A stretch of 44,245 bases of DNA from Chitinophagaceae bacterium (GTDB taxonomy: Bacteria > Bacteroidota > Bacteroidia > Chitinophagales > Chitinophagaceae): NCBI GenBank assembly GCA_947381435.1, contig CANCVE010000025.1, forward strand, positions 1-44,245, read 5' to 3'. The notes under the pieces were generated by a model. That model did no database searches and was not told the DNA's origin. It saw nothing but the letters and a program-made list of their open reading frames with translations. Of the stretch, positions 4,555-33,897 are shown piece after piece. Position 1 is the stretch's first letter; each line of letters opens with the position of its first letter. A program made the position numbers and the translations under genes.

Positions 4555-4770
4555 AACTAGTTAGAAAACAATTCTTACCAGCTAGAAAACATTTCTAGCC
4601 AGTTGGAAAACAATTCTGACCAGTTAGAAAACATTTCTGACCAGCTAGACAAGAACTCCAGCTAGCTAGAAAACATTTCTAGTTAGCTGGAAAACAACTC
4701 TAGCTAGCTGGAAAACAGTTCTAGTTGGCTGGAAAACAATTCTGACTAACTAGAATATCAACCTGATTAG
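4555..4770. repeat. Intergenic 21-bp tandem array (array 1, ten units)
   Basis: The GAAAAC core (or a variant) recurs at 4564, 4585, 4606, 4627, 4648, 4669, 4690, 4711, 4732 and 4753, an exact 21-bp phase over ten units. The best unit is a near-perfect palindrome, CTAGAAAACATTTCTAG; most units keep the AGAA/TTCT arms while the flanking CTAG varies. Because 21 is a multiple of three, one frame reads as heptads such as QLENISSQLENNSD, but TAG stops interrupt it repeatedly, so it is not coding. It lies downstream of the MFS gene and abuts the composite inverted repeat at 4770. Confidence 0.9.
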
Positions 4771-5135
4771 CTGCTAATACATCTTTTAAAGTCGCTTAGG
4801 TCTCGCCGTCATTGCGAGGCACGAAGCAACCTTTTTTTTAAGATTAATACGCTTAAACTCATTGAAAAGGGTTGCTTCATGCCTCACAAAGACGGGGTTT
4901 AAATTTCAGAGAGGACACATCGAAAGTCAGCCTGTTAGCCTGAGGCCTTAATTAGAGAACCTCAAGTTTGTTGAAAATGACATTTCGCTTAGTCCTTCTC
5001 CATAATCTTCGCGTCATTGTAAGGCACGAAGCAACCTTTTTTAGGATTAATACGCTTAAGGGTATTGAAAAGGGTTGCTTCGTGCCTCGCAATGACGGGG
5101 AGACCTAAGCGATTTTGAAAGATGTCATTAGCAGC
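4770..5135. repeat. Composite inverted repeat with four CATTGCGAGGCACGAAGCA-type arms
   Basis: Two hairpins of about 100 bp (about 4805-4907 and 5010-5100) each have arms of the CATTGCGAGGCACGAAGCA type around a loop containing GATTAATACGCTTAA. The two hairpins are direct repeats of each other. The whole segment is also a larger inverted repeat: about 60 bp starting GCTGCTAAT at 4770 match the complement ending ATTAGCAGC at 5135, with an outer TCGCTTAGGTCTC / GAGACCTAAGCGA pair. The remaining spacer to the next gene (5136-5373) contains TTCGACAGGCTCAGCGTGA and another CGCAATGACGGGG fragment. Sequences of this kind are, from memory, common intergenic repeats in Bacteroidota; I see no gene in the interval. 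Confidence 0.8.
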
Positions 5136-5373
5136 CTGTCAAAACAGGGATAATAGGTTTAAACTGTTTGCGCTTCGACAGGCTCAGCGTGACAATCATC
5201 TTGATTTTCGATGTGATTGGTAACATCATTCACATTTTTTTTTGGTGCGCCAGATGAGAAATTCGCAATGACGGGGAGATTATGAAGAAGAACTAATCAA
5301 AATGACTTATAGACAGCACATATATAGTCATTATCATCGTTGGAATATTGAATTATTGATAAAAATAAATACT

Positions 5374-8300
5374 ATGAGTACAGTAAATGCTTGGGTAGAG
5401 TCGGTTATTATCCCTACTTATGGGGTTGGGAAGGCTGAAAAGAATCCTATTTTCTTGGAGAAAAGGGTTTATCAAGGAAGTAGTGGGGCTGTATATCCTC
5501 ACCCCGTGATAGAGAAGATTCTGGACGAAAAGACAGATGTTACCTACCAAGCTGTATTTATTGAGAATGAATATTTGAAGATAATGGTGTTGCCAGAGTT
5601 GGGAGGGCGCATCCAAATGGCGTACGATAAGGTGAAAGAACGCCATTTTATCTATTATAACCAAGTAATTAAACCTGCTTTGGTAGGACTGACTGGACCA
5701 TGGATTTCTGGAGGCATTGAGTTTAACTGGCCTCAACATCACCGTCCGAGCACGTATAGCCCGTTAGATTTCACCATTCAGGAAAATAAGGATGGCAGTA
5801 AAACCATCTGGGTAAATGAGGTAGAACAGATGTTTCGAACCAAAGGGATGGCTGGTTTTACCTTATATCCCGGTAAGGCTTATCTGGAAATAAAGGGTAA
5901 GTTGTTTAATAGAAGCCTGTTTCCGCAAACATTCCTTTGGTGGGCAAACCCTGCCGTTAAGGTGAACGATCATTATCAATCTGTTTTTCCACCTGATGTA
6001 TATGCCGTATTCGATCACGGCAAAAGGGATGTATCTTCTTTTCCCATCGCCACGGGCACTTATTATAAGGTAGATTATGCGCCCGGTACCGATATTTCTC
6101 GTTATAAAAATATCCCTGTTCCTACTTCTTACATGGCCATTCAATCTAAATATGATTTCATGGGAGGGTACGAGCATGACACACAAGCGGGTTTGCTGCA
6201 TGTGGCTAACCACCATGTTTCGCCAGGGAAAAAACAATGGACTTGGGGACATAGCGATTTTGGGCAGGCTTGGGATAGGAACCTCACAGATGAAGATGGA
6301 CCATACATTGAATTGATGACGGGTATGTTTACGGATAATCAGCCTGACTTTTCATGGATTCAACCCAATGAAGAAAAAACTTTTGAGCAATACTTCATGC
6401 CTTATGCAGAATTGGGCATGGTAAAGAATGCAACAAAAGAAGCTATGATTAACGTAGAAGTGGAGGGCAAAAAAGTAACCTTGATGGTATATGCCACTAG
6501 TGTTTATGAAGAGGCTATCATTTCTATTTACCAAAAAGAAAAGCTTTTATTTAAGAAGACTACTATTTTATCACCTAAAGATATTTTTAAACATACCCTC
6601 ACAGTAGAAGCGGTTGTTTTGGAAGATTTACGAGTAGAAGTAACCGATGGAAAAGGGATAGTATTGGTGCAATATCAACCAGAAAAGCTAGACAATACCA
6701 CTATTCCTGCTGCTGCCACCGCTGCTAAATTGCCTTCCGAAATAGATAGTATTGAAGAACTATACCTTAATGGATTGCACATAGAGCAGTACCGTCATGC
6801 CACTTATTCTCCGTTAGATTATTATCAGGAAGCCTTAAAACGTGAGCCATCCGATTACCGTTGCAACAATGCAATGGGGTTATGGCTATTGCGAAGGGGG
6901 AAGTTTGCAGAAGCTGAGCCTTATTTCAGGGAGGCTATCAAGCGTGTTACCCAAAGAAATCCGAACCCTTATGATGGAGAGGCATTATATAATTTGGGTT
7001 ACTTATTATTGTTACAAAATAGGTTGGATGAGGCAAAGGAGAAATTGTACAAGGCAACTTGGAATGCCGCTTGGCAAGATCCAGGTTACTTGGCTTTGGC
7101 ACGGATAGCATCTAAACAACACCAATATGAAGAGGCATTGGCACTGATTGAGAAATCGTTAATAAAGAATTACCATAGCCATACGGCAAGGCATTTAAAA
7201 GTGGCATTATTAAGGTTGACAAATGAATCGACTTCGGCATTACATTACATTAATCAATCAATAACTATCGATCCATTCAATTATGGGTGTCTCTTTGAAA
7301 AGTATTTTATTACCAAAGGATCAGTTGCTAAAAGTCAATTCTTATCTCTGATTGGTGGGCGCGTTCAAACCTATATTGAATATGCTTTCGACTATGCCCA
7401 TGCAGGTTTGTATAAGGAAGCAATTGAATTATTATCGCTTTATACAGAATCGAATACCGACAATATTTACCCAATGGCGTACTACTATATGGGATGGTTT
7501 AGTGAAATGTTGGGCGACGAAGCAAACGCATTGGAATACTATCAATTGGCTGCTCAGATGAACCCAGACTTTTGCTTTCCGCATCGGGTAGAAGATGTTT
7601 TGGTGTTACAATCAGCCATAAATGCCAAACCAACTGATAGCAAGGCATTGTATTATTTAGGAAATTATTGGTACGATAAAAGACAATATCCAGAAGCAAT
7701 TGATTGCTGGGAGAAGTCTAAAGCCATAGATGAAAGTTTCCCTACGGTTCATAGAAACCTTTGTTTGGCATACTACAATAAACTAAAGAATCCAGAAGCG
7801 GCATTGGCAGCTATGGAAAAGGCTTTTAAATTGGATGCTACCGATGCGAGGGTGTTGATGGAACTGGATCAATTGTATAAGATATTGAACTATCCGACTG
7901 AAAAAAGACTGTCATTATTAAATGATTATCCAGAGCAGACTTCGCAACGTGATGATTTATATCTAGAGAAAATTAGTTTATTAAATCAATCTGGAGAATA
8001 TGAATTGGCCGATAAACTATTAAAAACAAGGAAGTTTCATCCGTGGGAAGGAGGCGAAGGAAAGGTGGTTGCCCAATACCTGATGACAAAAATCGAGTTG
8101 GCAAAACAAGCTTATTTAAAAGGCGCGTTCGATGAGGCATTGAAACAGTTGGACGCCACCAACCAATATCCACACAATTTGGGAGAAGGAAAACTATACG
8201 GAACACAGGAAAACGACATTGCTTATTGGAAAGGATTGATCTATGAAAAGCTGGGCGACACTGACAAGGCAAACTATTGTTTTGAACAAGCCACAGTAGG

Positions 8301-8685
8301 CATCAGTGAACCAGTGCAAGCCATCTTTTACAATGATCCTCAGCCTGATAAGATATTTTATCAAGGGATGGCTTGGCTTAAGCTGGGACAAAAGGAAAAG
8401 GCGGATATTATTTTCAACAGGTTTATTGCCTTTGGTGAAGAGCATAGAGATGATGAGATAAGCATAGATTATTTCGCAGTGTCGTTACCAGATTTATTGG
8501 TGTTTGATGCTGACCTGGACGAAAAGAACCGCATTCACTGTACTTATATCATTGCTTTGGGCAAATTAGGATTAGGATTGCACGAAGAGGCATCTGCATT
8601 GTTTACAGAGATACTTACTAAGAATTGTAATCATAATGGGGCAAAAGTGCATCAGAAAATGATAAAGAAATTTGTTGGGATTTAA
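5374..8685 (+). CDS. DUF5107 protein with C-terminal TPR repeats
   Basis: 1103 residues from the chosen start. The frame is open from 5302, but MSTVNAWVESV at 5374 is the likely N-terminus: DUF5107 proteins begin with this kind of strand, and the 24 residues before it look like translated leader. Residues about 10-350 match DUF5107 (YLKIMVLPELGGRIQMAYDK, WISGGIEFNWPQHHRPS, GHSDFGQAWDRN), a beta-sandwich thought to resemble galactose mutarotases. From about residue 450 to the end there are many TPR-like helix pairs, for example AMGLWLLRRGKFAEAEPYF and ALYYLGNYWYDKRQYPEAI. There is no signal peptide, so it is probably cytoplasmic. The function is not established; the context suggests carbohydrate binding or processing. 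Confidence 0.85.
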   Translation: MSTVNAWVESVIIPTYGVGKAEKNPIFLEKRVYQGSSGAVYPHPVIEKILDEKTDVTYQAVFIENEYLKIMVLPELGGRIQMAYDKVKERHFIYYNQVIKPALVGLTGPWISGGIEFNWPQHHRPSTYSPLDFTIQENKDGSKTIWVNEVEQMFRTKGMAGFTLYPGKAYLEIKGKLFNRSLFPQTFLWWANPAVKVNDHYQSVFPPDVYAVFDHGKRDVSSFPIATGTYYKVDYAPGTDISRYKNIPVPTSYMAIQSKYDFMGGYEHDTQAGLLHVANHHVSPGKKQWTWGHSDFGQAWDRNLTDEDGPYIELMTGMFTDNQPDFSWIQPNEEKTFEQYFMPYAELGMVKNATKEAMINVEVEGKKVTLMVYATSVYEEAIISIYQKEKLLFKKTTILSPKDIFKHTLTVEAVVLEDLRVEVTDGKGIVLVQYQPEKLDNTTIPAAATAAKLPSEIDSIEELYLNGLHIEQYRHATYSPLDYYQEALKREPSDYRCNNAMGLWLLRRGKFAEAEPYFREAIKRVTQRNPNPYDGEALYNLGYLLLLQNRLDEAKEKLYKATWNAAWQDPGYLALARIASKQHQYEEALALIEKSLIKNYHSHTARHLKVALLRLTNESTSALHYINQSITIDPFNYGCLFEKYFITKGSVAKSQFLSLIGGRVQTYIEYAFDYAHAGLYKEAIELLSLYTESNTDNIYPMAYYYMGWFSEMLGDEANALEYYQLAAQMNPDFCFPHRVEDVLVLQSAINAKPTDSKALYYLGNYWYDKRQYPEAIDCWEKSKAIDESFPTVHRNLCLAYYNKLKNPEAALAAMEKAFKLDATDARVLMELDQLYKILNYPTEKRLSLLNDYPEQTSQRDDLYLEKISLLNQSGEYELADKLLKTRKFHPWEGGEGKVVAQYLMTKIELAKQAYLKGAFDEALKQLDATNQYPHNLGEGKLYGTQENDIAYWKGLIYEKLGDTDKANYCFEQATVGISEPVQAIFYNDPQPDKIFYQGMAWLKLGQKEKADIIFNRFIAFGEEHRDDEISIDYFAVSLPDLLVFDADLDEKNRIHCTYIIALGKLGLGLHEEASALFTEILTKNCNHNGAKVHQKMIKKFVGI

Positions 8686-8874
8686 AGTTTTACCACGAAG
8701 GACACGAGGTTAAAACACAAAGAACGCAAAGAAAATAAATACAATCAAAGGCATCGACGTTTATGATGTCTTTGTTTGTTGAATACTCGCTTAAGCATAT
8801 TCCAGTTACAAAATGATTCAACTAAAAGGATTAAGTGAATAGCAATTGCTAAACACCTGCATCACTATGGAGCT

Positions 8875-10953
8875 TTATTTTATAACCAGCTTCATCGATT
8901 TTAAAAAATTATTCCCTTTTACCTCTACAATGTACAATCCTGCTTCTATTTTATTAAAACTGAAAGGATAACCTTGCAGACCATTATGTAGAGTGATAGT
9001 TTTAGATAAGATAATTCTTCCAGCTATGTTTTTAATAATTACATCAAGTTCCTTATCATAGAGTTGTGGTAGCAAAAGAGTAAACTGCGAAGTTGCTGGA
9101 TTAGGATAAATACTAATAAAATCAAACGCTGATGTGTTTACCACTTTGGTATCATAAAACTGTTTACTTCCATCTATTTCAACGCTTTCAAGTCGATAAT
9201 AATGAGTGCCAGCAACGGGATTATTGTCTGCAACCATAAATTGTGTTGCACCATTTAATGCAGATACCTTGTCTAATAGTGTAAAATGTAATCCATCGGT
9301 AGATGTAAGCACCTCAAAATAAGCTACTCTGTCAGAACCCATTGTTTGCCATGCAACTTTAATGTTATTACCATCAGCAAATGCCTTGTAGTTAATAATC
9401 TTTATTGGCAAAGGGGTAGATATGGGTGTTATTTTCCAAAGCTCATTACTATCATCTTTATCAATATTCAAGCAGGCAGAATAGGTAGAAATATTAGCAG
9501 TAGAAGTATAGCTATTGGTGGCAGATAAGCATTGCAAGGGATGCTTTTTATTTTCCAACTTAAAATAGCCTCCTCCAGCATCCACCATCTGCCACAAAAC
9601 TTCATCCGATAATGAATCTGGCACCGTCCACTTTGCCGAACAAGTAGTATGGGTTGCCATGGATTGTGTACTATCAAAAATGAAATCAGAACATTGAAGG
9701 AAGCTACTATCTATGTTTGAAGTAATAGTTACATAGCCGTTACCCACAGGCGTAATCTTCCATTGTTGTGCGATACTAGTAGAGTCTGGAATGGCATTTA
9801 CCACAGAATCTACACCAGCTATACCATTAAAACTTTGAAGATTGTTATGCTGAAGTGCACTAGTACCCTTGGTTTTATTGTAGATAGTATAGACGCCATT
9901 AAAAGACTTAAAGTTGTAGGCATATTGTAGCCTGTTGAAGCCAGATTTATTTACAATCACCAATGAATCTGCTTTAGCATTTCCTGCAAGCATTGCATAA
10001 CAATCATTGGTTCGTAGTCCTGGCCAATACACTGCCCCCATTTTAGATTGATTTATCTGGTCTGGAACACCAACCATATACCTTATTTCGTTCTGTTTTG
10101 TATTAGTGGCTTGGCTATAAGTTCCTTCAAAGTTTATTGCATTGCACATTTCTGTTCCAAACTCGGTAACAACAGTCAATGAATCGTAGGGAGAAACACC
10201 CGTTGTTAATGAGGATGCCCAACCCGCAGGGGTAGAAATGTTTTTCCAAAAAGCATAGATGTGTCTCGAAAATAGACAACCTTTAAAGGTTGCATCAGAA
10301 GCCATTGTTGCCACATTTTCATCATACTTAGCACCACCTATAAATACCCTGTTTCGTCGTATTTCTGGATGCCTATTGAGCCAGCTTTTACAAATAGCCT
10401 TCCAATCTTTTAAGGCATATCCAAATGGTTCATTAAATATCTCGAAATACACATTCCCATTTAGTCTGTACTTATTTACCACCGAGTCCCACATTCTAAA
10501 AAAGGTAGTTGTATCTTTTTCATAGCCTACATGTGGCACACCTTCCCAGCAAGCTAAAATCACTTTAAACCCCATAGCAGTTGCCTGATCAGTTACACCC
10601 TGATAGTTATTCCACCAGTTACGATTGGCAGAATCCAAACCCAATACTGTTGCTTTATTAATGGGTAATCTTAGTGTATTTACTTCTAAAAGCTGCTTAA
10701 ATGTTTTACAAATAGTGTCCGTTTTTTTTACCACATCGGCGTAACTAAAGTTTGTATCTATACCAGACAAATACAAGTTGCCATTATTAAAATTGTCATC
10801 TACAGCAGCCCAGTTTACGCCCTTAAAAGCTGATCCTATTGTTTGCCCATATATCTGAGCATTAGTTTTAGGAGAAATTGCTACAAAAAGGAAGGTAAGC
10901 AATACAAGAAGGTGCGTAAAACACTTGGGGTTAATGGCAAATGGAGAAAGCAT
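8875..10953 (-). CDS. Secreted GH5-family glycosidase with ricin-like region and T9SS sorting domain
   Basis: 692 residues. The signal peptide (about 1-32) ends TNAQ. The catalytic domain (about 40-340) is GH5-like: NTLRLPIN on an early strand, VYFEIFNEPFG with acid/base Glu175, and LTVVTEFGTE with nucleophile Glu264. Residues about 345-510 resemble a ricin-type beta-trefoil (QQWKITPVGNGYVTI, FKLENKKHPLQCL, ELWKI), a probable carbohydrate-binding module. A fibronectin-like linker follows, then a type A T9SS sorting domain (about 615-692) with SIYPNPATSQFTL and a final GLYIVEVKGNNFLKSMKLV. It is therefore exported to the cell surface or medium. It converges with the DUF5107 gene across a 189-bp spacer. 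Confidence 0.87.
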   Translation of the reverse strand: MLSPFAINPKCFTHLLVLLTFLFVAISPKTNAQIYGQTIGSAFKGVNWAAVDDNFNNGNLYLSGIDTNFSYADVVKKTDTICKTFKQLLEVNTLRLPINKATVLGLDSANRNWWNNYQGVTDQATAMGFKVILACWEGVPHVGYEKDTTTFFRMWDSVVNKYRLNGNVYFEIFNEPFGYALKDWKAICKSWLNRHPEIRRNRVFIGGAKYDENVATMASDATFKGCLFSRHIYAFWKNISTPAGWASSLTTGVSPYDSLTVVTEFGTEMCNAINFEGTYSQATNTKQNEIRYMVGVPDQINQSKMGAVYWPGLRTNDCYAMLAGNAKADSLVIVNKSGFNRLQYAYNFKSFNGVYTIYNKTKGTSALQHNNLQSFNGIAGVDSVVNAIPDSTSIAQQWKITPVGNGYVTITSNIDSSFLQCSDFIFDSTQSMATHTTCSAKWTVPDSLSDEVLWQMVDAGGGYFKLENKKHPLQCLSATNSYTSTANISTYSACLNIDKDDSNELWKITPISTPLPIKIINYKAFADGNNIKVAWQTMGSDRVAYFEVLTSTDGLHFTLLDKVSALNGATQFMVADNNPVAGTHYYRLESVEIDGSKQFYDTKVVNTSAFDFISIYPNPATSQFTLLLPQLYDKELDVIIKNIAGRIILSKTITLHNGLQGYPFSFNKIEAGLYIVEVKGNNFLKSMKLVIK

Positions 10954-11254
10954 CGATACAAAAGTTTATATTAAAAATAGAAATGTAGGCAAGTATGCAA
11001 AGCAAACTGTTTATTAGATGCAAATATAGAGGCTTGCAAACTTCAAGCAGTTGCTTTAGGAAACGTAGCAACAAATAACATATACAAAATCATTAGTGGG
11101 TTCCATTTACAAACAGGTTTAACTAAAAGCCACAGTCATCCTAAGTAAGACTTGCGCCAAAGATTTTTTAAAATGACCTTTATAATGCAACAAAAAAACA
11201 ATAAATTCTACAAAAATATTTTTCAAGGAAAAGGCAATAAGTATAAATAGTTAA

Positions 11255-11441
11255 ATTAGATTTGGAAAACCGTATATATCAGGAACAAGAATAGCAGTAT
11301 CCGATGTTTTGCAAGGCTACCAGGTGGTCTGAAAAGGGAAAAGATAGTGGAGATTGCCCATCATTAACAAATGAACACACTAGTGCTATTCTTCAGTATG
11401 CTGCCAATAGAGAGGCTGGTATCAAAATGACAAAAACCTAA
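11255..11441 (+). pseudogene. Decayed DUF433-family antitoxin
   Basis: Frame one reads FGKPYISGTRIAVSDVLQGYQVV and then a stop at about 11333. A second frame continues GKDSGDCPSLTNEHTSAIL, then QYAANREAGIKMTKT and a stop at 11441. Joined, these match the DUF433 pattern: G-P-x-I-x-GTRI-x-V early, then LT-x-E-x-x-x-A-x-L-x-YAA. The gene is broken by a frameshift or small deletion in the middle and lacks a clear start. DUF433 proteins are usually antitoxins paired with DUF5615 PIN-like toxins. It lies in the 674-bp spacer between the GH5 gene and rhaB, where I see no other gene. Confidence 0.65.
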
Positions 11442-11442
11442 T

Positions 11443-11569
11443 ATGAAATAACTTTTAGGTGAAAATATTTTTGGGGTACCTAGTAAACACATTAAAATAT
11501 TACTATGAAAATGTTTTACATATTAGTTTTAGTGGGTTACCCAAACATATAAAGTGGTTGAGTAAATTC
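11443..11569 (+). pseudogene. Possible DUF5615-like toxin remnant
   Basis: Immediately after the DUF433 relic, ATGAAATAACTTTTAGGTG reads MK-stop-LLGEN, which is close to the MKxLLDEN start of DUF5615 proteins. About 85 bp further on, another frame reads LPKHIKWLSKFTFAFT, reminiscent of the following LPxxLVxxL helix. Position and partner family fit a decayed antitoxin-toxin pair. The match is short and crosses frames, so it is tentative. Confidence 0.25.
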
Positions 11570-11627
11570 ACTTTCGCCTTTACGTGATAGCCGCAACTAC
11601 AGATTCTATAAGTTGAAAGCAAAACGA

Positions 11628-12977: not shown

Positions 12978-12978
12978 A

Positions 12979-13050
12979 ATAGTGGTTAGTTATTAGTGGT
13001 TAGTGGTTAGTTAAATTGTATTTCTAACAACTAATAACTAACCACTAACA
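12979..13050. repeat. Simple-sequence hairpin between rhaI and rhaB
   Basis: Tandem GTGGTTAGTTATTAGTGG-type text on the left (12979-13002) is matched by its complement ending ACTAACCACTAACAAC on the right (13027-13050), leaving about 24 nt of loop. It fills nearly the whole gap within the operon. It may modulate distal expression or be a neutral repeat. Confidence 0.75.
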
Positions 13051-13055
13051 ACTGT

Positions 13056-14330: not shown

Positions 14331-14362
14331 AAAGCAAGTATTATTTGGTATAAATTATCTAA

Positions 14363-14677: not shown

Positions 14678-14679
14678 AA

Positions 14680-18178: not shown

Positions 18179-18432
18179 AGTAATATTCTACTAGTTTGAA
18201 TGATTATAGCACTATTAAACTTGCTATTCATCCCTACCATTTTTAATTCAAACATAGCTTTTATTATCACTAATTACGAAAAGTTTGTGAAAATATAGAA
18301 ACTCTTTAGAAAAAACATCAATTCCATTTTCTATTTCATTTACGAAAACGTTTTAATGCGACTATTACTTCTAAATTCCTTTTGATGCAATAGGATATAT
18401 CCATTTTCAGATGTCAATATTACCCTTCAATG

Positions 18433-18640
18433 GGAAGCCCTTACAGAAGAAATGTTCAACTGAACGGAAACGTCGTAAGCTCTTACGGATGAAATGTTCA
18501 ACTGAACGGAAACGTCGTAAGCCCTTACGGATGAAATGTTCAACTGAACGGAAACGTCGTAAGCCCTTACGGAAGAAGGGTTCAGTTGAACGGAAGTTCG
18601 GTAAGCACTTACGGAACTTCCGTTCAACTGAACATCTATC
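18433..18640. repeat. Alternating palindrome array, exact 21-bp phase (array 2, ten sites)
   Basis: Two palindromes alternate every 21 bp. Type A, GTTCAACTGAAC, begins at 18454, 18496, 18538, 18580 and 18622. Type B, GTAAGCCCTTAC, begins at 18433 (one mismatch), 18475, 18517, 18559 and 18601. The two central bases vary (A: AC or GT; B: CC, CT or CA) while both arms stay intact, so palindromicity seems to be what is conserved. The array lies in the 720-bp spacer between rhaT and the GntR gene. Frames are open on both strands only because 42 is a multiple of three. The rest of the spacer is AT-rich with no gene seen. Confidence 0.93.
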
Positions 18641-21908: not shown

Positions 21909-22650
21909 GTTAAACTGTTTTGCGCAAAAATAGCTTTGTTCACTATATAACTAGCTGTTAAATAGTAGTTGGATTAATAACTCAACTTCCGCATATTTAT
22001 CAACACGATAGTAAAGCGTTTTCATTCAACACATTAAATACATAGAAAAATAAGGTAAGAAGCTTTGCACTTTAAGATCAAATAGTTGGGAGTATAAAAG
22101 TGATACTTTATATACAATGTGTCCTTTTATTTTTCAACCAAGCAGACTATGTTCCTTATATGCCTACTTAATAACTTGCTATTTAACTTTTTCAAAATAA
22201 TGTTGGCCAATGCTACGAAGTGGCATTCCTTATGTGTCCTTTTTCTTAACCCATTTGCAAATAAACCCTATGTTGCCTACTATATAACTTTTACCAAAAA
22301 TGTTAGTTAATGCTACGAAGTAGCATTAACTATGTGACCTTTTCTTAAACTATTTACAAGTAAAACCTATGTGATCTATGTCCCTATGAACCCTATGTGT
22401 TGAAACTCTTTACTTCTCCATAAGTTATATAACTTGGAAACATTTGCCCCCCAAATTTTTGACTATGTGCCTATGCAATCTATGTGATGAATCTCTTTAC
22501 TTCTCCATAAGTCATATAACTTTAAAACATTTTCCCCTAATCCTTAACTATGTGTTTAATTTTACTAAATGTGAAAATATATGCGTAACATTAGTTACTA
22601 ATTGGAAGATATGAATTTTACAAATGTTGTTGTGTATTCATAATAATAGG
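21909..22650. other. Repeat-rich spacer, no gene seen
   Basis: AT-rich spacer with degenerate CTATGTG-type repeats between about 22110 and 22560. A segment of about 40 bp (CTATGTGTTGAAACTC followed by TTACTTCTCCATAAGTTATA) occurs at 22393-22435 and, less perfectly, at 22480-22522; a third, inverted copy is at 33461-33510. A 63-codon open stretch at 22119-22310 overlaps these repeats and is not considered a gene. Confidence 0.6.
22305..22331. repeat. Perfect 12-bp stem hairpin with GAA loop
   Basis: AGTTAATGCTAC, GAA, GTAGCATTAACT. A related but weaker copy (CCAATGCTACGAAGTGGCATT) lies about 96 bp upstream. No downstream T-run suits a terminator, so its role is unknown. Confidence 0.6.
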
Positions 22651-24086: not shown

Positions 24087-24097
24087 GGTCTAAAGTA

Positions 24098-24385: not shown

Positions 24386-24404
24386 GGTCTAAAGTAAAGA
24401 AATG

Positions 24405-24495: not shown

Positions 24496-24540
24496 AGAGA
24501 AATAGTATTGGACCTCTTCGACAATATAGCTAATAACAAA

Positions 24541-24571
24541 AGAGGCTATCACAACAAATGTGATAGCCTCT
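24541..24571. terminator. Strong bidirectional intrinsic terminator
   Basis: A 13-bp perfect stem, AGAGGCTATCACA with TGTGATAGCCTCT and a 5-nt loop, flanked by AAAA on the left and TTTTT on the right. It ends the leftward transcript of the 24601 gene and would also stop rightward readthrough. Confidence 0.88.
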
Positions 24572-24600
24572 TTTTATAATGCTAAATTATAACTCATCAA

Positions 24601-24861: not shown

Positions 24862-24904
24862 ATTCTTAATGATTAATGTTTAATGTTTAAAAGTTAATGT
24901 TAGT

Positions 24905-24935
24905 AGGTTAGTGATTAATAATTAATCACTAACCT
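24905..24935. repeat. 15-bp perfect stem hairpin between giant gene and small gene
   Basis: AGGTTAGTGATTAAT and its exact complement ATTAATCACTAACCT around a single central base. It lies in the gap between two co-directional genes; flanking ATGTTTAATGTTTAA words are of the same simple kind. It has no T-run and may attenuate or be neutral. Confidence 0.7.
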
Positions 24936-24954
24936 CTAATCATTAATCTGAAGT

Positions 24955-27900
24955 TTAGGGTTGAACTGAAAGATTTGTTTGATTAACCAATAAACCACTT
25001 GCAGTTTCTCTGATAGTTACACTGTAAGTACCAGCAGCCAATGTTTTGTTTACAGTAATTGCATGACTTGCACTTCCACCTGCGTGGCTGATAGCAACTT
25101 CTTGCACTCTTTGTCCTAATACATTGTTGATAGTAACTGTGTATTTACCAGCAGCTACATTACCAAATGATACAGTAAGAGCTTTACCAACTAATGGGTT
25201 AGGGTAAACTGAAAACTGTTTACTGTTTACTGTTAACTGTGCAACATTGCTATAGCTAACTGTACCAACTTCGCTAATTGCTTTGATACGGTAGTAGTTG
25301 GTTGCGGCAGTTGTATTGTTATCAGTAGTTGTGTAAGTAGCAGTGGATGTATTCTTAGCACTTGCTTGACCTATTTTCACGAAGTTCTTAGCATCTGTTG
25401 ATTTCTCAACTTCAAATCTCGAAACTCCCTTCTCTCCTACTGTATTCCAACTGATAGTTGCAATCTTGTTGTTCAATTTTGCAGTGGCTACAATGCTGTT
25501 TACAGCTAGTGTAGTAGGTTTGAATGCAATGCTGAACCTGTTTTCGAAACTACCAGCAACTTTTGCATCTACTGTAAACTTGAAGCTGTTTAAGCCACTA
25601 GTTAAGGTTGCAGTAGTGCCTTTGTAACTATCTACTAGGTAAGGTGCAAAACCATTTGCTGAATAAGTAGTTGCATCGATATCTAATTGATAAGCTGTTC
25701 CGCTAATATTACCGATGTTAACAGGAATTTTATCAGTAGCAGTAGCAGGTAATCTACCATCAATGCTAAGCGCTTTACCCTTATCGGAGATAGATAGGTT
25801 ATCATTGTTGTTACCAAACTTGATAGCATCCTGAGGTCCGTAAGTAGCATTTGTGAATGATTCATGGAAGGCAATTGCAGCAGCATCAACATTGTTGTAT
25901 GTGTTGCTAGCATCTTGTTTCAATAAGCTAATGTAGATTTTGCTTAATGGGGCAGCAGCACCAAACACAGCAACTTTTGCAACACTTGTAGCCTTAGCAG
26001 TTTCTTTAATTACAACTGTTGGGCTAGAAGCACTTGTTTGTACAAAGAATGCCTGACCCGGTTGAATATAACCAGAGGTAGTATTGCCAGCATAAACAGA
26101 ACCCGTTAGGGCATTGTAAGCGGCATAGGTACCCGTGCTTCCAAATTTAGTATCATAATAGTAGTAGCTACCATTGATGTTGCTAGATGCACCATAAACC
26201 GTAGTAGTGCTGCTGTTAGTACCAGTTCCAGTACCCCATTGTATTGGAGCAATGTACGGATTAGCAATCATACTGAACTTACCAACAGTACCATTCAAAC
26301 CATAAGCTGATGCTTGATAGGTAGAACCAACAGATGTATTTGTAACACCACTTGTAGCATAAGTTACAGTACCTGTTATTACATTACCTGTAGAACGAAG
26401 TACAGTTGAGTTAACCATACGAAGACCAATATTGTAATAGTTTACAATTGGCGTAGTAGCTAGGTTAAAGCTTCTATCTCCTCTTACTAATACCCTGTAC
26501 CCAGTGAATGGTTCAAGATTAATTGTCTTCGTGTTATAGATACTGTCAACTTTTCCAGCAGCATATAAAGAATAAAAAGTACCATTTGAATTAGTGTATG
26601 TAAATGCAGAAGCTACACCATTGATACTATAATCTAAACCAACAGAGTTAGGTGCAGGTTGAGAACTGTAATTTGCAGCATTCGCATCAGTTGCACTTGG
26701 ACCAGTAATGAAGATACCCTTACCACTAGTAAATGCACCGCCTTCTTGCCAGTTATTGAATATAGAACCAGCATTATTAACCTGAGGTGCTAAATCTCTG
26801 TAACCACGGAAACCAGCAGGAATATAACGCTCTACTATTACGGTTCCTGAAATTGTACCAGTATTTCCACTTGTTCCATAAGCAGCAAGAGTACCTGTAT
26901 TTGCTATACTTGTAGACTTGAAGGTTACTCTGCTATTGGTAGTTAAAGCACCACTTTGTAAAGTAAGTACTCCACTAACATTAAACATATTTCCAGCAGT
27001 TACAGAAACACCACCAGAAGTATTGTTGATGGTAACATTTCCAACTGTACCTGAACCAGTGATGGTTTGTGCAGAAGTCGTATTTAGCAACAAAGTTCCA
27101 TTTCCAGAAATTGTACCGTTATTTACTAAATTACCTTGAACAGTAAAGTTAAAATTACCTAGAGCAACAGTTACATTAGTAGCAACTGTTAATTTCAAGC
27201 AGTTCAATGCCTTTGTCAACGTGTAGTTACCATTGATCGTTGCATTTTGGTCTCCCAAATCTGGATCACCATGATCCCAACTACCAACACCGTTAGTAAC
27301 AGTCCATGTAGTACTGTTTGAAGGTATTACTGCACTAGAATTAGCGCTCAGATATCCTTCGCCAGAACCATTTGTTGCAGACACTTTGAAGGTGTAACTT
27401 GTTCCGTTAGTCAGACCTGTTACATTAATGTGATAAGGAAGCGTTAAGCTAGAAACATTTGCAGAGGCAGATGTAGCAGCAGTACCACTACCGTTTGCAT
27501 AAGCATATACTTTATACGATGTAATTGCTGTAGTACCAGTATAAACAGGTGCAGAGAATGAAACATCTACAGCAGCAGAACCATCAGCTAAACTACTGAT
27601 TGACGGAGCATCAGGAAATGCTTGAGGAGTTGTATTGAAAATAACAGATAATGGGCCAATGTTTACTGGAACAACGGTAGCAGAACTAGATTTTCTCCAA
27701 GGAATAACCCTGATTGTCAATGTATTTCCATTAGTAATTAATATTGGCGTTGGGAAAACATAGTTTGTTACAGATAAATTGCCATTACCTAATCCAAAAT
27801 CATTAGTATTCACGATGGTCGAAGCACTAGTAGCAGAACTTGTATTGGTAGCCGTTGAAATCTTAGTAAAGTTTGTACCATCAGTTGAATAACCAATAAC

Positions 27901-30900
27901 ACCTTCCATACCATTACCATTTGCTAAAACAGGAATTGTAATTGCAGAAATATTGATATCCGTATTGTCTGCAGGAGTAACTTTGAAATCAATTGATTTT
28001 GCAGCAACCAATGCCAAACCAGGAGCGGTGGTTAATCCTGCAAATGTAGGATCGGCTGTAGAAGTAGAACCATCCGCAACACTACCCGGGAATACTTCAT
28101 TATAAGTTACACCATTACCATTAGTACTAGTAGTATAATTTGTAAGAGTTGGTGTAGTTGCAATGATACTTCCAGACGTGTTTGGAGTTAAAGATGCAGC
28201 AGTCCAAGTTGCTATTGCATTACCAACTATAAATGAGTTAGTTGTAGCTGTAGACAATGAAGCACCATTAGGGAACACATTAATTACGCCGATATTTTTT
28301 GTACCAGCAGTAACTACATTAGCAGCAGCAACTGTAGCTGTCAATTGAAACCCGTTTACAAAAGTGGTCGTTAATTGTGTACCATTAAAGGTAATCTTAG
28401 AACCAGTTGTGAAATTTGAACCATACACCGTAAGTGTAAAGTCTGCATTACCTGCTACCACACCCGCAGGCGATAATGCCGCTATTGATGGGGTTACATT
28501 TGTAATAGTATAGGTTTGGTTTACAGTTGAGGCAGGAACCGCTGCACCAGTATTATACACTCCAATTGCAACAGTATTGTCAGTTATTACATTACCTGCA
28601 ACAAGAGAAGCAGGAACAGCAGCTGTTAATTGTGTTGTACTAATATAAGTAGTTGTAAGCGGTGTACCATTCCAAGTAATAGCTGATTTACCATTAATGA
28701 AGTCGGTACCATTTACAGTAAGCGTGAAGGCAGTAGTATCTACTTTTGAAGTAGCAGGAGAAATACTAGTAACTGAAGGTGTTACAGGAATACCTGCAAT
28801 ATCAAAAGCAAGTGTAGTTGATGTTGGGAATAAATTACCATTATCAGCCGTTAAAGTTGCATTGAAAGCGCCACCTGAAGTAGAAACATAAGTTCCAGTT
28901 ATTTTACCTGTAGAAGCATCAAGTGAGTATCCAGTTCCTGTTAATCCACTTGCAGAATAGGTAACAGAACCCTGCGTTGTTGTTGCTGCAAGAGTGTAGA
29001 TTGGAGAACCTGCAGTATAAGTAACTGCCGCATCTCCACTAACAGTACCAGTAGCACTTGTTATAACTGGTGAAGGATAAGAAGCTGTTGAAGTACCGGC
29101 AATAACCACATTTGCAAGAGTAATTGAAGCTCCCGACATAAAGGTTGATTTACCAATAGGAATAACTCTTACACTGATAGTTGAACCAGCAGGAACTATG
29201 ATTGGTGTAGTATAACTAAATATATAGGTAGAACCTGTAGGAATGAATCCTGAACTACCCACAATATCAGTAAATGTAGAAAAATTGTTTAAAGAGTAAG
29301 CAACCCTAAAGCTTGTACCTTGAGTGGTTGTACTATTTGTAAATGGAATAGTGATATTTCTAACTGTGAAATTATATCCAGCATTAGCAGCAGCATCAAA
29401 TTGAATATATCTAGATGCAGCATCACTGTTAATACCAACAAAATTGCTGTTGATAGTAACTGCATCAGCAGGCCAAGTTGTAACTGTACCAGATAATGAT
29501 GGTGTATACCTCATACCTGTAGCACCACTAGTAGTAGTATTGAATATTGCGTTTGCATTACTTGTATTAATTGGTAGGATACTAGTAGACCCTGAAGTAT
29601 TTGATAATGTTCCACCAGTAACATTTGATGCAGAAATTGGCGCACCTGTACCAGTAACAAGAATTGTAGCACCAGATAATGCAGTAGTTGGCGTAGATGA
29701 AACAACAAAGTGTGTAGCATCTGTAATGCTTGTTACAGTAGTACTTGCTGCAAAGGCACCTGTACCTGATGAAACTGTAACTACAGAACCTGTTGGAAGA
29801 CCTACTGTACTTGCACATGTTACAGTAGTAGTAGAACTACTTGCCGCAGTCAAGGTCATAGTAGAACTAGCATTGAACGCCCAAGCCGCACCAGCACTAT
29901 AAACAGTGAATGTTTGAGTAGCTGCTGAAGCATGTGTAATATTTGCACCAGTATTGGTTACTCCTACTGCATTTGTTCCAGCTACTGTTAATAGGGAAGA
30001 GGACAATGTTGCAGTAAGTGAGGTAGCAGAAACATAAGTAGTGGCTATTGGTGTACCATTCCAAGTAATGGAAGAAAGCCCAGATAGGAAGTTGGTACCT
30101 GTTACAGTTATTACAGATGTATTTGCTCCAGCTACTGAAGCTACTGGAGATAAAGCAGTAACAGTAGGAGTAACAAGTGTAATTGTATAATTTGTAGTAT
30201 TAGAAGAACTACTTACTGTTAGCGGAGTTGAGGGACTAGCATTTGTACCACTATTAGTAACTCCTACAGCAACGGTAGGCGAAGATGCAGTATTAGCAAC
30301 CAAAGAAGCTGGAACTGCGGCTGTTAACTGCGTAGAACTTACAAAAGTGGTAGTTAAATTACTGCCCGCCCATGTTACGGTAGAGAAACCGTTATCAACA
30401 AAGTTGGTACCGTTTACAGTAAGTGTGAACGCCCCAAAATCTACAGCTTGTGTAGCTGGAGAAATACTTGTTACAGTAGGTACATCCAAAACAGTTATTG
30501 TTAAGGTAAATGGAGTTGAATTACTTAAACCTGAGCCAGTATTAGTTGCAGTAATGGTAACGGCGTACGACCCAGAAGTACCAGCTGAAGGCGTACCTGA
30601 AATAACACCAGATGTTGTATTTAAAGATAAACCAGATGGAAGTGATCCACTAGTAATAGCAAATAAGTTTGCAGCAGAACTTGTAGCGACAGTGTAACTT
30701 AAAGCAGTACCACCAATTAAAGCAGTGGCACTTGAAGAACTATTTATATTAGGAAAATTTCCTTCCACATAAGTAAATGACCTTGAAGCAGAGCCCGCAA
30801 CATTCACAGCATTAATGGTAATAGAGGAAGTGCTTGCAGTTCCTTGAGAAGTACCTGAAATTGTACCTGCGGTTGAGCTACTATTACTTAATGTTAACCA

Positions 30901-32766
30901 TGCTGGTTTACCAGATGAAGTAAGTGAAGTAATGTTGGTACCTGTTAATGCAATGTTCACTGCAGAACTAAGAGAGAATGTTTGATCTGCAATTGAATTT
31001 AATGTTGGCAAAGGATAAACAGAACCATTAGTACCCACTACAAATGAATTTGCTGTTGTATTTGCGGGTAATGTATATCCATTGAATCTAGCAGTAAATG
31101 GAGTTGAAGAAGTAAAACTTGATGCAGTTGCCAAGTTTCTAGTGATGTTAGCATAACCTGAAGTTCCGGTAGTTAAAACACCTAATTGAGATGTAGAAGC
31201 TATACCAGTAGCTGCTGCAGTAGCACCAAATGTAATATCTGAAACCGCACTAGCAGTTGATGAAGTAATACTCCACTCGTAAGGGATACAACTAGCACTT
31301 GTAAGAACATCGGTGGTTGTAAGAGGAGCAACTGCAACAGTAAATGATGCAGGTGAACCTGTAGTATTTGCAAAAGCTATAGGGGTATAAACACCTACAC
31401 CAGCTGTAGCTGTACTGTAACCAATAGGTACATTTATACTTGACGTAGAAGGATTAGAAACTATAACAGTACCGCCAGTAGTAGCTCCAGCAGCATAAGC
31501 TGTTGCATTAACCCCTTCTGCTATTAAAGAAGTTGTACTTCCACCAGAAGGTGAACCAGACATTGTTATTGTCTTTCCATTCAAATATATAATCCCTTGA
31601 GTAAATGTAGAGTTAGCATTTATACACAAATTATTGTTTAATGTCAAACTTTTTGAAAGAGTTGTACCACCAACCTGATTCATTACAAAATTTACAAGAT
31701 TGGTTGTACCAGGTATTGAATTATCAAAGTATGAACCAGATGCGAAGTTTATACCAGCAGAACCATTTAATGTTATGCTACTATTGCTACCTGCAGCAGC
31801 ATTTCCATTTGAAGCACTTCCTCCTCCTCTTATAGAAAGATTCTGGCTTGAACTAATTAAAATATAGCCACAAGACAGGGAATATCCATTCAAGTCAAGC
31901 AATTCACAAACAGTAGAACTATTACCTTTTATTCTACATGATGTTGGCAAACTTGAATTTCCTTGAAGTTGCACCCATGGAGAAAGTGTAATGTTTGGTG
32001 CACTAGCATTAGTAATGTTTGTGTACATTTTTTGAGCAACACTTGTTGTACCTAAAGATGCGTTACCCAAAGTAGCACCAGAGTTAACTGTTGCTGTTGC
32101 AACGCTACTTCCATTAAACTTGATAGTACTTGAATTATTTGTTCCAGTAATTGTACCTGTTGCAGCTTGACTAGCAGCAGCATTCCCAGCAAAGTTTAAA
32201 GTAAATTGTACTGTTGAAGGTCCAGTCATTGCAATTGCACCTCCTGTCATAATAAGATTACCAGTAACGCTAATAGTAGAACCCCCTGCAGAAGTAGAAG
32301 TGGCTGCAAGTGTAAGCGTACCTCCTGTACCAATAGTTAAATCACCAACAATGCTCGCTGCAAAAGTTGCTTGAATAGTTAAGCCAGTTGAAGTTCCACT
32401 AACAGTAACAGGGCCTGAAAAGGCAGAACCTGTATTATTAATTGTAGCTGTACCACCAGAAACCGTCAGAGAACCTGATGTGGCTTGAACAAAAATAGAT
32501 GCATTGGTAGTTAATGCAGCACCTACTACTATAATTACATCAGCAGAGGTAAGTCCAGTAGGGTTTGTATAAACTGTACCACCGTTAGCCGCAGCTGAGT
32601 ACAAAGTACCAGTAACAGCATAACCAGAACTAAGCGTTACTGAGCCAGTAGTACCAGTGTAATACGTAGTAGCCGAGACCACATTAAATAAACCTGCTAA
32701 TAGCAGCAGGAGTAACAGGCTGCGCTTTTTGGAGGCAGCTCCCATTTTGACAAGCAAAGTGTTCAT
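24955..32766 (-). CDS. Giant T9SS-secreted multidomain surface protein
   Basis: About 2600 residues. The frame extends to 32808 but opens with TTG; ATG at 32766 (MNTLLVKMGAASKKRSLLL) or 32775 is more likely, and TAAAAA lies about ten bases before the 32766 ATG. A signal peptide ends VVSA. The N-terminal 550 residues are Gly/Thr/Ser-rich repeats suggesting a beta-helix. Next come Ig-like putative domains (SGSLPSGLSLNTTSGVISGT), about four IPT/TIG-like domains (SISPAT, TLTVNGTDF, ITWNGTPL), and a fibronectin III domain (SYKVYAYANG, GLTNGTSYTFKVSATN). A C-terminal region has VSRFEVEKSTDAKNF and a type A sorting domain (SVYPNPLVGKALTVS). It is probably an adhesin or matrix protein; no catalytic motif was seen. 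Confidence 0.88.
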   Translation of the reverse strand: MNTLLVKMGAASKKRSLLLLLLLAGLFNVVSATTYYTGTTGSVTLSSGYAVTGTLYSAAANGGTVYTNPTGLTSADVIIVVGAALTTNASIFVQATSGSLTVSGGTATINNTGSAFSGPVTVSGTSTGLTIQATFAASIVGDLTIGTGGTLTLAATSTSAGGSTISVTGNLIMTGGAIAMTGPSTVQFTLNFAGNAAASQAATGTITGTNNSSTIKFNGSSVATATVNSGATLGNASLGTTSVAQKMYTNITNASAPNITLSPWVQLQGNSSLPTSCRIKGNSSTVCELLDLNGYSLSCGYILISSSQNLSIRGGGSASNGNAAAGSNSSITLNGSAGINFASGSYFDNSIPGTTNLVNFVMNQVGGTTLSKSLTLNNNLCINANSTFTQGIIYLNGKTITMSGSPSGGSTTSLIAEGVNATAYAAGATTGGTVIVSNPSTSSINVPIGYSTATAGVGVYTPIAFANTTGSPASFTVAVAPLTTTDVLTSASCIPYEWSITSSTASAVSDITFGATAAATGIASTSQLGVLTTGTSGYANITRNLATASSFTSSTPFTARFNGYTLPANTTANSFVVGTNGSVYPLPTLNSIADQTFSLSSAVNIALTGTNITSLTSSGKPAWLTLSNSSSTAGTISGTSQGTASTSSITINAVNVAGSASRSFTYVEGNFPNINSSSSATALIGGTALSYTVATSSAANLFAITSGSLPSGLSLNTTSGVISGTPSAGTSGSYAVTITATNTGSGLSNSTPFTLTITVLDVPTVTSISPATQAVDFGAFTLTVNGTNFVDNGFSTVTWAGSNLTTTFVSSTQLTAAVPASLVANTASSPTVAVGVTNSGTNASPSTPLTVSSSSNTTNYTITLVTPTVTALSPVASVAGANTSVITVTGTNFLSGLSSITWNGTPIATTYVSATSLTATLSSSLLTVAGTNAVGVTNTGANITHASAATQTFTVYSAGAAWAFNASSTMTLTAASSSTTTVTCASTVGLPTGSVVTVSSGTGAFAASTTVTSITDATHFVVSSTPTTALSGATILVTGTGAPISASNVTGGTLSNTSGSTSILPINTSNANAIFNTTTSGATGMRYTPSLSGTVTTWPADAVTINSNFVGINSDAASRYIQFDAAANAGYNFTVRNITIPFTNSTTTQGTSFRVAYSLNNFSTFTDIVGSSGFIPTGSTYIFSYTTPIIVPAGSTISVRVIPIGKSTFMSGASITLANVVIAGTSTASYPSPVITSATGTVSGDAAVTYTAGSPIYTLAATTTQGSVTYSASGLTGTGYSLDASTGKITGTYVSTSGGAFNATLTADNGNLFPTSTTLAFDIAGIPVTPSVTSISPATSKVDTTAFTLTVNGTDFINGKSAITWNGTPLTTTYISTTQLTAAVPASLVAGNVITDNTVAIGVYNTGAAVPASTVNQTYTITNVTPSIAALSPAGVVAGNADFTLTVYGSNFTTGSKITFNGTQLTTTFVNGFQLTATVAAANVVTAGTKNIGVINVFPNGASLSTATTNSFIVGNAIATWTAASLTPNTSGSIIATTPTLTNYTTSTNGNGVTYNEVFPGSVADGSTSTADPTFAGLTTAPGLALVAAKSIDFKVTPADNTDINISAITIPVLANGNGMEGVIGYSTDGTNFTKISTATNTSSATSASTIVNTNDFGLGNGNLSVTNYVFPTPILITNGNTLTIRVIPWRKSSSATVVPVNIGPLSVIFNTTPQAFPDAPSISSLADGSAAVDVSFSAPVYTGTTAITSYKVYAYANGSGTAATSASANVSSLTLPYHINVTGLTNGTSYTFKVSATNGSGEGYLSANSSAVIPSNSTTWTVTNGVGSWDHGDPDLGDQNATINGNYTLTKALNCLKLTVATNVTVALGNFNFTVQGNLVNNGTISGNGTLLLNTTSAQTITGSGTVGNVTINNTSGGVSVTAGNMFNVSGVLTLQSGALTTNSRVTFKSTSIANTGTLAAYGTSGNTGTISGTVIVERYIPAGFRGYRDLAPQVNNAGSIFNNWQEGGAFTSGKGIFITGPSATDANAANYSSQPAPNSVGLDYSINGVASAFTYTNSNGTFYSLYAAGKVDSIYNTKTINLEPFTGYRVLVRGDRSFNLATTPIVNYYNIGLRMVNSTVLRSTGNVITGTVTYATSGVTNTSVGSTYQASAYGLNGTVGKFSMIANPYIAPIQWGTGTGTNSSTTTVYGASSNINGSYYYYDTKFGSTGTYAAYNALTGSVYAGNTTSGYIQPGQAFFVQTSASSPTVVIKETAKATSVAKVAVFGAAAPLSKIYISLLKQDASNTYNNVDAAAIAFHESFTNATYGPQDAIKFGNNNDNLSISDKGKALSIDGRLPATATDKIPVNIGNISGTAYQLDIDATTYSANGFAPYLVDSYKGTTATLTSGLNSFKFTVDAKVAGSFENRFSIAFKPTTLAVNSIVATAKLNNKIATISWNTVGEKGVSRFEVEKSTDAKNFVKIGQASAKNTSTATYTTTDNNTTAATNYYRIKAISEVGTVSYSNVAQLTVNSKQFSVYPNPLVGKALTVSFGNVAAGKYTVTINNVLGQRVQEVAISHAGGSASHAITVNKTLAAGTYSVTIRETASGLLVNQTNLSVQP

Positions 32767-33339
32767 GTTAACCATTTTTAATTGTTGTGAAATTTTATTG
32801 AGAAGCAAAATATAAACGTATTTAATTGTTAACTATTAGGGGTTACTTTTTAGAGATTTGTGTAAATGACAAAAACCCATACTTAATAAAGACGGGTTTG
32901 AAGTGCTTTTCTTGTAGCGCAATCGTTATCATTATTTCATTTTTAGTAACCTTGTTCTTTGTAAAAATCTTAATCAAAACCTATACTTTTTTAATAAACT
33001 ATAATCAGACCAAAACTCCTCCCATTATTTTTATTAAACAAAAGGAGATTGTGCTTAAAGCTAGCCCGTGTGAACTGTTAAACTGACATTTATTATTCGT
33101 TTCATGTGTGGGTATTATTCCAATATAGCTAAACAATAGGCAAATTTGAGAATATGAATTGTGGTAACTGTCATATACTGTCCTACATTATTATACTTAT
33201 ACCTAAAACTTTTATACTTTTTTTTCTTTATTCGGAATTTTCTGCTATTTCGTTTTCGTTTTTAGCTTATAATCTGTACGTATACAAATTTATCAACAGT
33301 ACTTATAGTAAAACAATAATCTAATACCTACTTTAAAAA
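32767..33339. other. Leader and spacer upstream of giant gene, no gene seen
   Basis: AT-rich, about 570 bp. An 86-codon frame on the plus strand (32826-33086) has no recognisable features and is not called. ACTGTCATATACTGTC at about 33166 resembles CTGTCATACACTGT upstream of rhaT (about 18150); significance unknown. Confidence 0.4.
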
Positions 33340-33430
33340 GGGCGCATAAAAGTTTTTCGCTTTATAAATTATGTTGCGAATGTAGAGACGCATATCAATG
33401 CGTCTTAAAAGCGAAAATCTTTTATGCACC
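33340..33430. mobile_element. 91-bp hairpin MITE, copy 5
   Basis: Flanked by the perfect 9-bp duplication CTTTAAAAA (33331-33339 and 33431-33439). Nearly identical to copies 2 and 3, suggesting recent movement. It lies about 9 kb from the cluster of the other four. Confidence 0.9.
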
Positions 33431-33460
33431 CTTTAAAAAAGTGGCTGATGTCTCTACATA

Positions 33461-33510
33461 TATAACTTATGGAGAAGTAAGGAGTTTCAACACATAGGTT
33501 AATAGGCATG
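33461..33510. repeat. Dispersed repeat, inverted third copy
   Basis: TATAACTTATGGAGAAGTAA followed by GGAGTTTCAACACATAGG is the reverse complement of the segments at 22393-22435 and 22480-22522, with a few mismatches. It sits between MITE copy 5 and array 3. Confidence 0.7.
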
Positions 33511-33512
33511 GG

Positions 33513-33897
33513 GTGAACCATAATTACAGTAACATCGAACCCTAACTACTGTAACATCGAACCGTAACTACCGTAACATCGAACCGTAACTACTGTAACA
33601 TCGAACCCTAACTACCGTAACATCGAACCCTAACTACTGTAAGGTCGAACCGTAACTACTGTAACATCGAACCCTAACTACTGTAAGGTCGAACCGTCAT
33701 TCATGTAACATCGAACCTATAATTTGTAACATCGAACCATCACTACTGTAACATCGAACCGTAACTACGGTAAGGTCGAACCGTCATTCATCTAACATCG
33801 AACCTACAATTTGTAAGATCGAACCCTCATTCATGTAACATCGAACCCTAACTCATGTAACATCGAACCGTAACCAAAGTAACATCGAACCGTTACA
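33513..33897. repeat. 22-bp tandem array with 13-bp conserved core (array 3, about 18 copies)
   Basis: The core GTAACATCGAACC (variants GTAAGGTCGAACC three times and GTAAGATCGAACC once) alternates with a variable segment of 8-9 nt such as GTAACTACT, CTCATTCAT or TATAATTT. Most units are 22 bp; two are 21 bp. The core has no strong dyad. Stop codons occur in all frames examined. It lies immediately upstream of the flippase gene, whose ATG is 112 bp away. Confidence 0.92.

Follow-up and report, generated by a model that had tools for sequence, protein, structure and literature searches.

Intergenic tandem arrays stepping by about two helical turns, in many unrelated words, in one genus of the Chitinophagaceae

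The nearest known kind of element to the one described here is BrickBuilt of Porphyromonas gingivalis, a minisatellite or miniature inverted-repeat transposable element (MITE) with one 23-nt word, 19 copies, a leader, a tail and small inverted ends (PMC4596501). Our subject is a class of tandem arrays, three of which lie in a window of 44,245 bp (the whole stretch of DNA analysed, contig CANCVE010000025.1), itself one entire contig of the 4.88-Mb, 231-contig genome of a Chitinophagaceae bacterium, here G000. As in BrickBuilt, going by the part of its description drawn on here, the arrays occur in Bacteroidota, are intergenic and dispersed, and consist of tandem imperfect units without spacers (about 23 nt there, with a period of 21-22 here) that have conserved and variable positions; some also lie inside MITE-like elements (PMC4596501). 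The same part of the description has one word with a leader and a tail, whereas here many unrelated words share one period, arrays of 42-bp inverted dimers are common and most arrays in the sample are without common flanks (PMC4596501).

A second comparison is with the repetitive extragenic palindromic (REP) sequences, bacterial interspersed mosaic elements (BIMEs) and REP doublets forming hairpins (REPINs) that go with REP-associated tyrosine transposases (RAYTs). Like our arrays these are intergenic palindromic repeats, clustered and with several families per genome, but the parts of the two accounts used here mention no fixed two-turn tandem period (PMC3116915, PMC3733652). RAYT-like genes are, moreover, few in our genomes and without linkage to the arrays. 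The iterons of plasmids and phages are direct repeats about two helical turns apart, with protein bound on one face; they are, however, one word at one replication origin, unlike the scores of chromosomal arrays with many words considered here. Heptamer tandem repeats, in the part of the account used here, are widespread in prokaryotic intergenic regions and, like the present class, have one preferred period, without a known function (PMC6344855). Three times 7 is 21, but words and spacing differ, and the periods of our 22-, 41- and 43-bp arrays cannot be divided by 7 (PMC6344855). We found no description of 21-bp or helically phased intergenic bacterial arrays in the open-access literature, a search that did not cover most subscription journals and preprints.

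The class comprises mostly intergenic minisatellites of many unrelated words with a common step of about two helical turns, namely 21 bp, or 41-44 bp (four turns) where the unit is an inverted dimer. Array 1 (4557..4755) has, by Tandem Repeats Finder, a period of 21 with 9.5 copies, and also of 42, with 76% matches and 0 indels; its word is CTAGCYAGCTAG plus GAAAACATT in a 42-bp higher order. Array 2 (18432..18640) carries ten palindromic sites, alternately GTTCAnnTGAAC-GGAA and GTAAGnnCTTAC-GGAA, with nine spacings of exactly 21; the Tandem Repeats Finder core is 18435-18616 with a period of 42, and degenerate copies run up to about 18635. The repeat unit of array 2 is a largely self-complementary 42-mer, so that the 21-bp spacing of its dyads is a mathematical consequence of the 42-bp period. 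At its right end lies a near-perfect palindrome of 54 bp (18580..18633), 93% identical to its own reverse complement over that length. Array 3 (33515..33893) has a period of 22 with 17.3 copies, a higher order of 87 and the word GAACCGTAACTACTGTAACATC. No strand is assigned to any of these features. A sequence-only reading of the window had described three unrelated intergenic arrays, the first two each with ten palindromes in strict phase. The arrays are indeed real, intergenic and different: Tandem Repeats Finder recovers all three, no open reading frame (ORF) of at least 80 aa covers any of them, and they form three separate word clusters. The ten phased palindromes hold for array 2, while for array 1 it is the 21/42 period and strand symmetry that are confirmed (0.57, where column-shuffled copies give 0.40; p 0.01). 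Array 3 lacks strand symmetry by the same test (0.35 against 0.32, p 0.17). None of the arrays is organised as clustered regularly interspaced short palindromic repeats (CRISPR), since the units abut without unique spacers; no search was made for cas genes.

The period was surveyed in 41 stretches of G000 (844,245 bp including the window, or 17% of the genome), counting as a long row any Tandem Repeats Finder row of at least 60 bp and at least 2.3 copies; rows overlap, so they outnumber arrays. Among 137 long rows there are 49 at period 21, 32 at 42, 8 at 63, 4 at 84 and 7 at 41, with a further 6 at 22, 2 at 43 and 1 at 44. Heptamer-type rows account for 8 at period 7 and 6 at 14, and every other period has 1 or 2 rows. 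The same survey of a first-order Markov copy gave 0 long rows and 8 short ones. The genome-wide excess over a shuffled control that the sequence-only reading called for is therefore present in the sampled 17%, as sharp peaks at 21-22 bp and at 41-44 bp. After merging, and with heptamer and period-87 arrays removed, 63 arrays of at least 76 bp remain (75 per Mb), with many unrelated words, which extrapolates from the 17% to some 350 arrays per genome. Of 70 arrays (heptamers included), a simple ORF rule finds 14 to be more than 50% covered by an ORF of at least 100 aa, and part of these are probably real coding repeats. The heptamer and period-87 arrays were likewise left out of the clustering, curvature, dyad, symmetry, flank and terminal-repeat tests, as was one long coding array that is still inside the census of 63; arrays of low self-identity were left out of the overdispersion, conserved-column, curvature and symmetry tests.

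Within the unit, 51 of 91 arrays are strand-symmetric at p <=0.05 against their own column-shuffled versions. The proportion is 28/35 at period 42, 8/12 at 41, 3/4 at 43 and 1/1 at 44, and 11/34 at period 21. Because most arrays with periods of 41-44 bp are symmetric in this way, much of the 42-bp class is made of inverted dimers. Units are palindromic at p below 0.05 in 23 of 55 arrays, and conserved columns cluster within arrays, with a mean neighbour autocorrelation of 0.12 against -0.04 (55 arrays).

The class is concentrated in one Chitinophagaceae genus, whose nearest named relatives, judged by one protein, are a Chitinophagaceae metagenome-assembled genome (MAG) at 83% and Sediminibacterium species and MAGs at about 75-81%. 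Under the census rule the congener G005 has 33 arrays in 486 kb, or 68 per Mb. Smaller samples gave 2 in 47 kb for G001, 1 in 24 kb for G002 (a single 78-bp array), 3 in 59 kb for G003, 2 in 47 kb for G006, 2 in 60 kb for G007, 1 in 29 kb for G009, 2 in 27 kb for G010 and 3 in 42 kb for G011, so that nine sampled congeners bear arrays, at 33-73 per Mb, rates that are rough for single genomes given the small samples. The arrays are thus not the isolated accidents that would have told against the earlier proposal. Other congeners are array-poor: the 120 kb of G012 hold a single array, itself doubtful (periods 9, 44 and 53), for which the Poisson probability of one or fewer is 0.004 at 65 per Mb, and there are 0 arrays in 37 kb of G004 and 18 kb of G008, with no repeat row in an additional 4 kb and 20 kb, respectively. 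Outside the genus, 5 arrays occur in 1.32 Mb, or 3.8 per Mb, across 79 loci from other named relatives (by title mostly Chitinophagaceae, locus L106 excluded). Under a slightly less strict rule, seven genomes of other families of the order hold 2 in about 323 kb, of which one is a heptamer array.

Where orthologous arrays can be compared, they diverge in sequence yet hold phase, since they take up substitutions as their flanks do and nearly all of their indels are whole 21-bp steps. The comparison behind this uses the word of array 2, located with a fixed-spacing search pattern of 37 bases (the arrays are about 200 bases long) in five of 13 genus genomes, at seven places in G000, two in G002, three each in G003 and G005, and one in G006; the reversed control pattern had 0 matches in the 13. 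Across these 16 arrays 117 of 120 successive spacings are 21 or 42 and one is 22, the remaining two, of 5 bases, being secondary matches at array ends. Three sites are orthologous: A in G000, G002, G003 and G005, B in G000 (left flank only), G003 and G005, and C in G000 and G005. Aligned in pairs, the orthologous arrays have 1610 matches, 414 substitutions and five gap events, of 42, 5, 21, 21 and 21 bases, with the 5-base exception near an array end. Their 120-bp flanks (excluding the non-homologous right flank of G000 at site B) have 1577 matches and 357 substitutions, and among their 20 gap events there is no multiple of 21. Identity is 79.5% in the arrays and 81.5% in the flanks, while indels that are not multiples of 21 number 1 per 414 substitutions in the arrays against 20 per 357 in the flanks (Fisher p 4e-6 with pairs treated as if independent, which they are not; p 0.009 with one pair per site). 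This restriction on indels is the strongest evidence for selection on spacing, and on that point it bears out the sequence-only reading. In a separate count 48 of 79 arrays are without indels, a biased figure because Tandem Repeats Finder misses indel-bearing arrays, a bias that affects the orthologous comparison less. Variable columns are overdispersed in 21 of 38 arrays, a pattern that duplication history can also produce and that we therefore leave unused.

Our preferred explanation, to which we give a probability of roughly 0.45, is that the arrays are platforms on which protein docks every two helical turns, on one face of the helix. Selection would hold the sites on that single face, where a dimeric protein, DNA-binding or architectural and perhaps one of a small family, would dock at each step and stack cooperatively along the array; the words would then be sequence variants that are tolerated, or else sites that belong to related proteins. 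The role is more likely in local chromosome structure (compaction, bridging or insulation) than in control of neighbouring genes, because the arrays are indifferent to gene orientation: their density per 10 kb of intergenic DNA is 4.7 in tandem gaps (n=34), 5.9 in divergent gaps (n=19) and 5.3 in convergent gaps (n=8). Densities so alike tell against the arrays being promoter elements, and the enrichment in divergent promoters raised by the sequence-only reading is not seen. More tentatively, and on balance with some doubt, the arrays could form a chromosome-wide system of structural docking sites, evolved in this genus, in which helical phase and not sequence is the conserved signal, read by a predicted protein that would assemble every two turns; array-poor sister species would then have lost, or never gained, that reader. 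If phase alone is selected, these genomes would contain hundreds of natural experiments in which a bacterial DNA-binding protein reads helical geometry. They would also provide a ready assay for a protein of the nucleoid or of insulators, in which right phase is set against wrong phase. Comparison of the species with and without many arrays inside one genus is a way towards finding the reader, and intergenic minisatellites, commonly taken as junk or markers, would prove able to keep a fixed architecture.

Several observations weigh against docking platforms. The indel test covers three sites of one word family, at loci found by a fixed-spacing pattern. Palindrome cores and spacers have identities between orthologs of 0.83/0.80, 0.73/0.79 and 0.72/0.62, and since the cores are not consistently better kept than the spacers, strict sequence recognition is disfavoured. 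Part of the arrays are lineage-specific, as in the rha gap of G005, where the sequence beside the transporter gene is kept and array 2 is absent. None of the five 22-bp arrays tested, array 3 among them, is strand-symmetric. The 21 array neighbours that were read (of 124), 10 of which were scanned, appear to be ordinary genes, 3 of the 10 having no Pfam match. Limited candidate searches, among neighbours, sampled proteins and HU, found no binding protein; the sampled proteins include no expanded DNA-binding family, and genomes with more arrays do not have more copies of HU.

Two candidate proteins were set aside. One dedicated transcription factor per word was rejected on the lack of an expanded DNA-binding family just mentioned, and a reverse transcriptase as generator on the lack of any PF00078 match in G000 and seven other genus genomes, all seven array-bearing. 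A variant of HU is at best a weak lead. An HU copy with VDFGTF in place of VGFGTF is present in all eight array-bearing genomes read (G000, G001, G002, G005, G006, G007, G010 and G011), and the array-poor G004, G008 and G012 have a copy with VGFGTF (loci L283-L300 and L303-L309; the G003 and G009 copies stand outside the comparison). The lead is weak because 21 of 96 other sampled genera also have matches to the back-translated motif pattern, in what may or may not be HU.

The arrays might instead be mobile satellites, non-autonomous elements of MITE, REP or BIME type whose palindromes are read by a transposase and whose 21-bp step reflects transposase or hairpin geometry, an account that we consider rather unlikely for the class. 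Words do recur at several loci, mostly without common flanks. Elsewhere in G000, array 2 is matched four times at nearly full length and twice in part, and array 3 has a colinear match of 359 bp on contig C15 (79%) and shorter ones on C50, C20 and C2. The array 1 word lies at four places in G000 (the other three on C9, C13 and C89), with no match in 59 other genomes (one a congener, while the other 58 belong to different genera in the same family). For arrays 2 and 3 this recurrence, with similarity ending at the array edges, favours mobility, as does the absence of array 2 from the G005 gap; the aligned array-2 copies, however, do not share common ends. Such relatives also make the proposed contrast with shared ancestry too strong: unrelated words may share a step, but arrays built on a single word are related by descent, both between loci and between species. 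Word clusters were built by single linkage, and the 17-member cluster is loose, because a reversed-sequence null still gives 35 cross pairs against 140 real ones.

A further point for mobility is a three-copy element of 705-725 bp in G005 (L206:15918-16621, L210:11738-12443 and L211), with a 21-bp array in its middle and a terminal inverted repeat of about 22 bp, TTAATTCTACTTTGACAnATTA, clearest in L210. Two more array pairs, one in G000 and one in G005, have 484 and 473 bp in common, array included. Such MITE-borne structure, with leader and tail or terminal inverted repeats, belongs to a minority of arrays. A within-genome relative was found for 36 of 194 array flanks, 4 of these being one locus sampled twice and 7 belonging to adjacent arrays. 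Terminal inverted repeats (score >=14) accompany arrays in 5 of 95 cases and control gaps in 4 of 142, and for want of an enrichment a universal MITE origin was rejected. A RAYT-like transposase gene (L058:13990-14631; NCBIfam REP_Tyr_transpos, 50.8 bits, below the cut-off of 80) lies 429 bp from a GGTATACC array, but an array lies within 1.5 kb at three of the ten RAYT/Y1 places found, where about two would be expected by chance at 75 arrays per Mb (several of the loci are cut by contig ends). A RAYT as writer or reader of the words was accordingly dropped. Mobility also fits poorly with arrays kept at orthologous places in up to four species, and it leaves the bar on non-21 indels unexplained.

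Neutral minisatellites, in which slippage or unequal exchange works in existing 21-bp steps only and the period persists without function, seem to us improbable. The higher-order periods of 42, 63 and 84 and the whole-unit indels of 21 and 42 are what unequal exchange would be expected to give, and array interiors change at about the flank rate. That account leaves the founding periods of 21-22 unexplained, however, and any homogenisation able to erase one-base indels should also erase substitutions, which nevertheless match the flanks. A mutational step that duplicates 21 bp was considered and rejected: among isolated two-copy duplications (at least 88% matches, away from arrays, non-heptamer), 21-bp cases make up 1 of 9 in non-coding DNA, which is no excess. 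The census holds 25 further short rows at period 21, which mostly fail these filters and are not itemised.

Least probable is that each array is a multi-site operator through which a dedicated repressor controls the adjacent genes. In favour of this, array 2 lies between what we take to be a RhaT-like transporter gene and a GntR-like regulator gene, and in G006 that transporter gene is again accompanied by an array of the array-2 word (on the opposite side). Against it, divergent gaps are not clearly preferred, and of 124 neighbour relations 74 put the array upstream of a gene's start and 50 downstream of a gene's end. In G005 the rha gap retains its transporter-side sequence without an array, and arrays of the array-2 word adjoin unrelated genes.

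Neighbouring genes are otherwise diverse, with one family of mostly large proteins supplying 8 of the 124 neighbours and any other family two members at most. In the window, array 1 sits downstream of a gene at 3187-4512 that is presumably sugar-porter-like.

Corresponding gaps in two species can both hold arrays: L048 and L218 carry different words (other gaps likewise by eye), and L055 and L208 carry the same word. One array is a mosaic in two species, an observation that favours docking platforms. The GGTATACC array at L226 (G000:C178), of the word AAAATGGTATACCA, has a quite different 21-bp word, in phase, in one internal slot and also at one end, and by eye its apparent ortholog at L225 (G005:C14) has the foreign word likewise. 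A word similar to the inserted one forms a further G005 array by itself. Two geometric readings were abandoned. A literal '10.5-bp dyad lattice' was dropped because any dyad in an array of period P forces a second at P/2, and DNA curvature, the phased form of which the sequence-only reading had offered as one possible cause, is only modestly above that of column-shuffled arrays (mean rank 0.38, 86 arrays), in a calculation with wedge parameters.

Other repeats surround the arrays of the window. Heptamer repeats of AGATATG and GAGTTAG (4511..4552) immediately precede array 1 in the Tandem Repeats Finder output and belong to a separate class, one that occurs in prokaryotes generally (PMC6344855); intergenic heptamer repeats are numerous, for instance also at 12980-13053, 24866-24948 and 41201-41285. 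On the other side of array 1, at 4800-5100, CGTCATTGCGAGGCACGAAGCAACC occurs in inverted pairs, presumably akin to CGTC-tagged REP palindromes. A dispersed repeat of about 100 bp at 33332-33440 has at least 33 further places in G000 at 90-100% identity (40 of 113 candidates scored), four of its copies lying in the window (22644, 22965, 23551 and 24400), and looks like a young MITE. A second dispersed repeat, with the word CTATGTGTTGAAACTCTTTACTTCTCCATAAGTTAT, occupies 33435-33508, just before array 3, and 22376-22554, where it is partly tandem; it has 11 further matches on seven other contigs. A known RNA element was rejected as the identity of the arrays, the sole Rfam match at gathering score in the window being the bacterial RNase P class A RNA at 35330-35684. 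Two overlapping ORFs in different frames at 42014-42734 have the appearance of what we take to be a broken transposase gene.

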